Part shown: in pieces, positions 13,930-52,582 of the stretch | How the letters are laid out: every line of letters begins with the position of its first letter | Position numbering within the stretch: position 1 is the stretch's first letter | Origin: Candidatus Providencia siddallii | Lineage (GTDB): Bacteria; Pseudomonadota; Gammaproteobacteria; Enterobacterales; Enterobacteriaceae | Length of the DNA: 64,000 bases | Reading direction: 5' to 3' | Assembly (NCBI GenBank): GCA_001457715.1 | Contig: CVRF01000003.1 | Coordinates: 1 to 64,000 of the forward strand | Position numbers and translations under genes: made by a program | Notes under the pieces: generated by a model | What the model was told of the DNA's origin: nothing | The model's database searches: none | What the model saw: the letters and a program-made list of their open reading frames with translations, nothing else

Positions 13930-14553
13930 TTAGTATTTAAATTCAGAACGCTGGTCATCTATAAAAACATTTTTAGGTATTAAAAACTTAAATTTATTTT
14001 TATCAATTCTAGTGTTTATTTGATTTTTTAATGTATAAATATTACTTTGACCATCTTCTTCAAAAACAGAAAAATCATGAATTATACCTTTTGAGGAAAT
14101 AGTAATTGAAAAATTCCTTGATGTTTTATTAATATTCTTTGATTTTAAATCAAAAGTATTACCATGTTTAACTATAAAATAATCATCCCAGTTTTTTGTA
14201 TTATTATTTATAATTAATAAAAATGGTGTATTATTAATTTCATCAGATAAATTTGTTACTGTAACTTGTTCAATAAGCGGGTTATAAAACCATAAATATT
14301 TCCCATCAGAAATTAAAAGATTTTCATCTGGAGAAATAGTCTTCCATTTAAATAAATTAGGTCTTTTAAGTCATAAATAACCAATTCCTTCTTGTATTAA
14401 TTCCCCATCGTGACCTACTGCTTTTTGCGAAAAATCAGCTTGAAAAGAATTTAGTTTACTTAAACGTTTTTGAAGATCACGATTAACATCTGATAACACT
14501 ATATTATCAAATAAACAAAAATATAGTATATAATACAATATTATTTTCTTCAT
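13930..14553 (-). pseudogene. lolA: Outer-membrane lipoprotein carrier LolA, interrupted by one in-frame UGA
   Basis: LolA is the periplasmic chaperone that carries lipoproteins from LolCDE to LolB. The minus strand from the ATG at 14553 reads 60 codons (signal peptide MKKIILYYILYFCLF, then RDLQKRLSKLNSFQADFSQK) to a TGA at 14373-14371. It then continues in the same frame with LKRPNLFKWKTISPDENLL, YLWFYNPLIEQVTVT and the C-terminal IDDQRSEFKY to a TAA at 13932-13930. The total is 208 codons, matching full-length E. coli LolA (about 203). The TGA lies exactly where E. coli has the conserved Trp of the WVKRPNLF segment, so one TGG to TGA change explains it. The rest shows no frameshift. It could be a fresh nonsense mutation, a sequence error or tolerated read-through. 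TGA is a normal stop elsewhere here (infA, fabZ, lpxB). Confidence 0.9.
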
Positions 14554-14892: not shown

Positions 14893-15478
14893 TTAAGATT
14901 TATATTTCTTTATACGATTTATTATTAAAATAATTGGTAATAAAACTATATTTATAGTTATTCTAAAAATAGAAAATAAAGCTAAATTTTTAATTAATTC
15001 TATGCTGATTGTAAAAAAAAACAATAAAATAATTGTCAGTTCATGCGAATTAAACCAAAATAATAATATATTACTAAATATATTACCAACTATACCACCA
15101 GAAGATAAATTTAGTAAATCATTGAAATTAACTGCAATTAATATACAAAATATAATTATAAAAAAAAATATACCAATTAATAACCTTGATAAATAAAAAA
15201 ATCAATAAAACCAGATTTTTTTTTTGTTTATAAATTAAATATGATCCAAAGAATAGCAACATAGGAATAATAAATGCTGTAATACCAAAAGCAGATAAAA
15301 GAATATCCGATACCCAAGCACCAGAAATTCCAAATAAATTATAAATAAAAAAATCACTAGTGGATTGCGACCAACATGGATCTAAATCGCTAAAACTTAA
15401 TAAAGAAATTATAAAAAAGCAAGCAATTGAACAAATAATTAATACTAACATTGTTAATATTAAATTTAATTTATACAT
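14893..15478 (-). pseudogene. ftsK: FtsK N-terminal membrane domain only, two frameshifts
   Basis: FtsK anchors at the septum with a four-helix membrane domain and pumps DNA with a C-terminal ATPase. Here the first frame (from ATG 15478) gives the first helices with SLLSFSDLDPCWSQS and FGISGAWVSDILLSAFGI, both clear FtsK matches. Homology breaks at an A10 tract (plus-strand T at 15216-15225) and again at a T7 tract (plus-strand A at 15195-15201). One added base in each restores a continuous reading that continues GFIDFFYLSRLLIGIF, NDLLNLSSGGIVGNIFSNIL and ends at the TAA at 14893, about 195 residues. The linker and the whole motor are absent. The gene order ftsK-lolA-serS is as in E. coli. 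It may be a dying gene, or an essential FtsKN rescued by polymerase slippage. Confidence 0.88.
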
Positions 15479-51330: not shown

Positions 51331-51783
51331 ATGAGTGATAATCATACTCTGAATATAGAAGAAATCTTAGAATTACTTCCACATCGTTATCCATTTCTTT
51401 TAGTGGATCGTGTATTAAATTTTAAAAAAGGAAAATCATTACGTGCAGTAAAAAATATCTCGTTTAATGAAATGCTTTTTCAAGGACACTTTCCTGGAAA
51501 ACCAATTTTTCCAGGAGTATTAATTTTAGAAGCAATGGCGCAAGCAACAGGTATTCTAGCATTTAAAAGTTCAGGAAAACTCGAACAAGATGAATTATAC
51601 TATTTTGCTGCAATTAATAACGCGCGATTTAAACGCCCTGTTTTACCTGGAGATCAAATGATCTTAGAGGTTGAATTTATCAAAGAACGCCGGGGTGTCG
51701 CTCGTTTTAAAGGTATTGCAAAAGTTGATGGAGAAATAGTCTGTGAAGCAGAAATGATGTGTGCTCGTCGTCGTGAGAACTGA
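51331..51783 (+). CDS. fabZ: 3-hydroxyacyl-ACP dehydratase FabZ
   Basis: A hot-dog-fold dehydratase of type II fatty acid synthesis. The 150 residues (E. coli 151) contain [13 protein letters not shown] near 15-27 and the catalytic His and Glu in [20 protein letters not shown] near 53-72. CAGGAAG lies upstream. The stop is TGA, and lpxA starts one base later. It sits between lpxD and lpxA as in E. coli, where it competes with the lipid A pathway for hydroxyacyl-ACP. Confidence 0.98.
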
Positions 51784-51784
51784 T

Positions 51785-52582
51785 ATGATTGATAATACAA
51801 CTTATATACATCCTTCATCTATCATAGAAAATAAAGCTATTGTTGGAAGAAATGTCCGTATCGGGCCTTTTTGTTACATAGGAGCTAACGTAAAAATTGG
51901 AGATAATACTGAATTAAAATCTCACATTGTTATTAATGGATATACAAAAATTGGTTGTGATAATATTATATTTCAATTTGCATCAATTGGTGAAATCAAT
52001 CAAGATCTGAAATATAACGGTGAACCAACACGATTTGAAATTGGTAATAGAAATTGTATAAGAGAAAATGTAACTATCCATAGAGGAACTTCACAAGGTG
52101 GTGGTGTAACTAAAATTGGAGACGATAACTTATTAATGGTTAATGTACATATAGCCCATGATTGTACAATTGGAAATAATTGTATTATTGCAAATAATGG
52201 AACATTAGGTGGACACGTTACAATTGGTGATTATGCAATAATAGGTGGTATGACTGCTATTCATCAATTTTGTAAAATTGGTGCTCATGTAATGGTTGGA
52301 GGTTGCTCAGGTGTAGTACAAGATATACCGCCTTATATAATAGCACAAGGAAATCATGCAACTCCGTTTGGGTTAAATCTTGAAGGACTAAAACGTCGTG
52401 GTTTTAACAAAGAATCGTTATATGCTATTCGTAATGCATATAAAATATTATATTCTTCAGGGAAATCATTAAAAGAAGCACGAGAAGCTATCTCTGAAAT
52501 AGCTAAAACAAATGCACATGTAAAAATATTCAGTGATTTTTTAAAAGATTCTTCTAAATCTAAACGTGGAATTATTCGTTAA
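51785..52582 (+). CDS. lpxA: UDP-N-acetylglucosamine acyltransferase LpxA
   Basis: The first enzyme of lipid A synthesis. I start it at the ATG at 51785 ([20 protein letters not shown]), one base past the fabZ stop, as in E. coli. This gives 265 residues (E. coli 262). Hexapeptide repeats run through about residue 190, with the catalytic His in [12 protein letters not shown] (near 125) and the chain-length ruler region [18 protein letters not shown]. The C-terminal helical domain includes EGLKRRGF. Confidence 0.97.

Follow-up and report, generated by a model that had tools for sequence, protein, structure and literature searches.

The lolA gene is located at positions 13930-14553 on the reverse strand of the window, the whole stretch of 64,000 nucleotides that was analysed, and its frame runs through 207 codons to a TAA terminator if the single TGA at codon 61 (14371-14373, reverse strand) is read as Trp. 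With the UGA translated in this way, the product exceeds the cut-off of the NCBIfam lolA equivalog model TIGR00547 (184.3 bits against 112, over residues 6-201) and is also matched by the Pfam LolA model. The original prediction of a frame open but for one TGA, placed at a conserved Trp, is borne out by the alignment, where 40 of 45 relatives were taken in and the column is Trp encoded by TGG in 39 of the 40, all 11 Providencia loci among them, with Gln in one Pasteurella. The base following the TGA is C, giving a UGA-C context. BamA, DolP and LpoA had been described as intact or largely so, which is correct for BamA and DolP; LpoA has an uninterrupted frame of 561 codons that matches Pfam LppC and no NCBIfam model.

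The genome to which the window belongs consists of four contigs with a total of 843,819 bases, and the sampled stretches have a GC content of 23.6-24.5%. This fits 'Candidatus Providencia siddallii' PSOF, which lives as a nutritional symbiont in the leech Haementeria officinalis and for which 844 kb and 23.9% GC are given in Table 1 of PMC11218487; the P. siddallii contigs named in PMC7783057, CVRF01000001-4, are also four. The sole congener among the 40 genomes searched, a single contig of 755,758 bases, fits strain PSAC, whose host is H. acuecueyetzin and whose genome has 756 kb at 22.0% GC. In PMC7783057, the mitogenome tree places the two host leeches as sisters. The comparison of the two symbionts, from which PSLP, the symbiont of H. 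lopezi, is absent, covers 364 kb of PSOF, which is a 43% sample of its genome, and 340 kb of PSAC, and yields 251 or 252 gene alignments with 100 residues or more, depending on the region filter. Adjoining lolA, ftsK is apparently cut down to its N-terminal membrane part in both genomes, with 116 residues left in PSOF (window positions 15128-15478, reverse strand) and 172 in PSAC (stretch L027, 557-1075).

PSAC has a TGA at the identical codon of lolA. A search for LolA in the 40 genomes, PSOF itself included, found a match in 34, of which 32 have no interior stop; the remaining two are PSOF and PSAC, each with one TGA at the same codon. Since the codon recurs in another genome, where LolA has diverged to 57% identity, a sequencing error or a very recent mutation, two of the three readings that had been offered for the site, are both very unlikely, whereas the third, UGA read-through, gains support. 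An error of sequencing or assembly could be suspected in PSOF, the record being a four-contig draft, but the occurrence of the same TGA in an independent record, together with three further shared sites, leaves it a negligible probability.

The part of lolA downstream of the TGA (13933-14370, reverse strand) is no less conserved between the two symbionts than the part upstream, with pN of 0.21 and pS of 0.37 after the UGA against pN of 0.33 before it, and amino acid identity of 61% against 47%. The same holds for the other genes with an interior TGA in which both sides are long enough to compare, as identity and pN downstream are no worse than upstream in rimM (pN 0.21 after and 0.27 before the UGA), apbE (0.12 and 0.24) and tsaC (0.15 and 0.18), with the caveat that lolA and apbE encode signal sequences in their 5′ portions, which are more variable in any case. 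A second lesion in lolA was found in neither symbiont copy, so the further decay in relatives that the original prediction named as the sign of a true pseudogene is not seen in the one close relative compared.

Five sampled PSOF genes in total have an interior in-frame TGA, namely lolA at codon 61, rimM at 112, apbE at 127, tsaC at 91 and znuB at 9. The sites in rimM, apbE, tsaC and znuB are Trp encoded by TGG in all four free-living Providencia genomes, and PSAC shares the TGA at four of the five sites, in lolA, rimM, apbE and tsaC, while at the znuB site it has TGG. If the TGAs had arisen independently, and assuming 47 TGA among 720 Trp columns, the probability of sharing at least four of five sites would be 7.6e-5. 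The znuB TGA, found in PSOF alone and close to the start of the gene, could be recent or an error. Scaled up from the 43% sample, the five sites would correspond to about a dozen in the whole PSOF genome.

A best-frame comparison gave 24 columns in which PSOF shows a TGA, and the five sites were retained from these. The other 19, which were judged by position and translation and not each by other means, correspond to translated rRNA (C3, 247-250 kb), gene ends, or positions before start codons. A loose tblastn control of PSOF gave 24 rows with TAA or TAG and 18 with TGA, many of them at gene ends. When at least 25 columns and 40% identity were required on each side of the stop, the stops left outside RNA genes were the TGAs of lolA, rimM, apbE and tsaC, all four shared with PSAC, and a pair of neighbouring TAAs where two genes meet (C3 108965 and 108968). 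Within RNA genes, a tRNA gene kept one TAA and the rRNA region two TGAs. The znuB site falls outside this filter, having too few upstream columns.

These observations bear on the possibility that lolA is a pseudogene in which one nonsense mutation was inherited by both symbionts. The intact release factor RF2 and the apparent continued use of UGA to end genes, both described below, agree with such a reading. Against it are the conservation 3′ of the TGA, the lack of another lesion in either copy, and the kind of interior stop found, as in the conserved sampled genes these are TGAs at Trp sites, with TAAs passing the strict filter only at a gene junction or in a tRNA gene, although random nonsense mutation at 24% GC would favour TAA. 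A dead lolA is therefore considered highly improbable.

Both genes that the original prediction singled out for inspection, those for tRNA-Trp and RF2, have been retained. First, a search for E. coli-like tRNA-Trp genes gave one strong match in each symbiont genome (stretch L036, 1501-1577, and L035, 1499-1575), both with the anticodon CCA; a tRNA-Trp with a UCA anticodon, as expected under code 4, was not seen among such E. coli tRNA-Trp-like genes. The two genes differ from those of free-living Providencia, where of four copies two have the E. coli sequence and two differ from it at a single T-loop base. Both symbiont genes have a D-loop that is one base longer, an A at the variable T-loop base and an incomplete encoded CCA end; in addition, by hand-assigned numbering, PSOF carries C11 facing G24 and U28 facing G42, and PSAC has A59. 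With CCA kept and UGA putatively read, they resemble the tRNA-Trp variants described in PMC13092985 that read UGA with the anticodon CCA unchanged, which comprise the Hirsh suppressor altered at G24 (G24A), A9C and a variant with a 4-bp anticodon stem. The resemblance does not extend to the substitutions themselves, as neither symbiont carries G24A or A9C, although G59A is present in a triple mutant in the same paper. A literature search for an effect of a C11-G24 pair on UGA reading by tRNA-Trp returned nothing.

Next, the prfB gene for RF2 has an intact frame without an internal stop in PSOF, and the SPF and GGQ motifs are retained. The programmed frameshift site CTTTGAC, present in prfB of all four free-living Providencia genomes, has been lost from both symbionts, where the frame is fused at a T run and is read without a shift (stretch L031, 1489-2589, in PSOF and L032, 1453-2553, in PSAC). 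In PSAC, prfB is itself interrupted by an in-frame TGA, where the codon is TGG in PSOF and Trp in the four Providencia genomes, and the supply of RF2 in PSAC would therefore depend on UGA read-through.

Finally, UGA seems to serve still as a stop in both symbionts. The region conserved with PSAC ends in TGA in 28 of 251 sampled PSOF genes by rule, of which 27 were examined for the fourth base, one having been dropped from the hand list because its alignment ended far upstream; 16 of these 27 terminators are UGA-U. The corresponding PSAC genes number 10 to 16 depending on the rule, where the 16 of the looser rule include some PSOF Trp columns, and 7 of the 10 under the stricter rule are UGA-U. 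Within the window, the reading frames at 51331-51783 and 51761-52582 overlap at 51761-51783, the upstream one being terminated by TGA in both symbionts, an arrangement that might favour the retention of UGA as a stop codon.

At the same time, UGA is rare as a Trp codon, accounting for 4 of 778 interior Trp codons in PSOF and for 50 of 741 TGA and TGG codons in PSAC, while other NNA/NNG pairs are 84-96% A-ending. From the codon counts, UGA is apparently tolerated as Trp yet avoided, and more strongly so in PSOF, where the 4 of 778, far below the A share of the other pairs, suggests that it may be read poorly.

The evidence is thus mixed with regard to a complete reassignment of UGA to Trp in the manner of code 4, where UGA would never act as a stop. 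In-frame UGA at conserved Trp positions in several genes, as would be expected, is found in both genomes, at five PSOF genes and at 44 PSAC sites in PSOF Trp columns. The loss of RF2 and of UGA as a stop is not seen, however, with prfB present and about 27 TGA-ended PSOF genes and 10 to 16 in PSAC; moreover, the tRNA-Trp anticodon is CCA and not UCA, and few Trp codons are UGA, whose usage depends on the next base. Full reassignment accordingly has only a very slight likelihood, similar to that of the pseudogene. Because tRNA-Trp keeps CCA and prfB is intact, an ambiguous UGA is more likely than a complete reassignment, and with neither RF2 loss nor a UCA anticodon found, the state of these genomes would be a partial, context-dependent stage of the UGA-to-Trp change and not the full table 4 code. 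A standard code with relics would agree with the presence of RF2 in both genomes and with the TGA-ended PSOF genes.

The dependence on context is most clearly seen in PSAC. The base after its 50 in-frame UGAs is A in 40 cases, G in 7, C in 3 and never U, whereas after 691 TGG codons it is A in 240, C in 105, G in 138 and U in 208 (Fisher tests: U, P of 8e-8; A, P of 4e-10). A similar picture emerges when only the columns that are TGG in PSOF but TGA in PSAC are considered, which number 37 or 40 depending on the region filter (251 or 252 genes); in the set of 40, the PSAC codon is followed by A in 33, G in 5, C in 2 and U in none, while U follows in 196 of 639 columns that are TGG in both symbionts. 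Control codons of the AGR, GGR and CGR types give odds ratios of 0.83 for U (P 0.20) and 1.26 for A (P 0.08) in PSAC, and of 0.58 (P 6e-7) and 1.43 (P 7e-4) in PSOF, and in columns that changed from NGG in PSOF to NGA in PSAC the next base is U in 54 of 166. The next-base effect can therefore be partly mutational, yet the control is far weaker than the 0 of 50. In E. coli, according to PMC11126739, termination is more efficient when U follows the stop codon and less so when G does, the leakiest next base being G and not A. The absence of U in PSAC fits these termination data, whereas the excess of A in place of G does not follow from them. The five PSOF sites are followed by A in three cases and by G and C in one each, which is too few for a test. 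At six of the 50 PSAC in-frame TGAs, located in stretches L098-L119, the PSOF residue is Leu, Ser, Gly or Cys and not Trp.

The bias is taken as the probable mark of competition between RF2 and tRNA-Trp. The PSAC fourth-base bias and the intact RF2 would fit an ambiguous intermediate, in which UGA both stops and codes and RF2 competes with tRNA-Trp. A stronger version would have the fourth base set the meaning of UGA, with UGA-U mostly a stop and UGA-A, as well as UGA-G and UGA-C, mostly Trp; such a rule would predate the split of PSOF and PSAC, with RF2 and CCA kept and the prfB frameshift lost, and the Trp UGA in PSAC prfB would be a new feedback replacing the lost one. This proposal is plausible, with somewhat less than an even chance of being correct.

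The context preference also bears on the origin of the shared sites, which could have arisen independently in PSOF and PSAC if only leaky sites in genes whose products are required in small amounts tolerate UGA, still read as Trp. The context-dependent use of UGA in PSAC would favour some sites over others and so make coincidence easier, but sharing of four out of five far exceeds the random expectation, and the context in PSOF lolA is UGA-C and not the favoured UGA-A. Independent origin is consequently unlikely, although less so than the pseudogene or the complete reassignment.

Taken together, the UGA at codon 61 of lolA is very probably read as Trp by tRNA-Trp(CCA) in the presence of a functional RF2, as part of an early, ambiguous reassignment of UGA that would predate the separation of PSOF and PSAC and in which PSAC has likely gone further. 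In such a mechanism, tRNA-Trp(CCA) would pair with UGA most likely through a C-A mispair at the third position, and RF2 would compete with it at codon 61, so that full-length LolA would be made in some fraction of initiations. The ambiguous stage would have begun in the common ancestor of the two leech symbionts, with PSAC having presumably advanced further in the change from stop to Trp. The insertion of Trp, its efficiency, the responsible tRNA change, if any, and the ancestry of the shared sites are all inferred from the genome comparison.

The code change in PSAC was reportedly regarded in 2023 as specific to the lineage of the H. acuecueyetzin symbiont and as a likely intermediate stage. 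The altered genetic code of PSAC has been published (Manzano-Marin, Kvist, Oceguera-Figueroa 2023, Genome Biol Evol evad164); it concerns the same species and the same kind of change, and the sister genome analysed here has 50 interior in-frame UGAs in the sampled genes. In contrast to a change reportedly confined to PSAC, the PSOF genome here has UGA in place of Trp codons at five sites, of which PSAC shares four. No other publication on UGA-Trp codons in P. siddallii was found by title or start of abstract, although the symbiont papers of 2015 and 2023 may include a claim on PSOF, and the word Providencia does not occur in the main texts of PMC13092985 and PMC8629427. The use of UGA for Trp in PSOF, the shared sites and the fourth-base rule, with no UGA-U among the 50 PSAC sites, are possibly new.

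Among known systems, Hodgkinia cicadicola is likewise a symbiont with a reduced genome where UGA is Trp, but according to PMC2704378 it has no RF2 and an anticodon UCA, while the symbionts studied here keep RF2 and CCA. The first step proposed for Hodgkinia in that paper is a structural change in the D- or anticodon arm of tRNA-Trp with RF2 still there, and by analogy the mechanism proposed for P. siddallii would be this first step. Stammera, Nasuia, Zinderia and the mycoplasmas, mostly with small AT-rich genomes, have undergone the same UGA-to-Trp change and are listed in PMC8629427 among reassigned codes, whereas that of P. siddallii would be partial and context-dependent.

In practical terms, a reading by the standard code would label lolA, rimM, apbE, tsaC and znuB as broken in PSOF. 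More generally, how a stop codon can change its meaning while the release factor is present is an old question that has been argued mostly from completed lineages, and a comparison of sister symbionts that differ in how far the change has gone, with few UGA-Trp codons in one and many in the other, would show the order of events more directly. The order implied is that changes in tRNA-Trp and the loss of prfB autoregulation would already be present, that UGA would then spread in weak-stop contexts, and that the loss of RF2 and a UCA anticodon would be steps as yet unreached.
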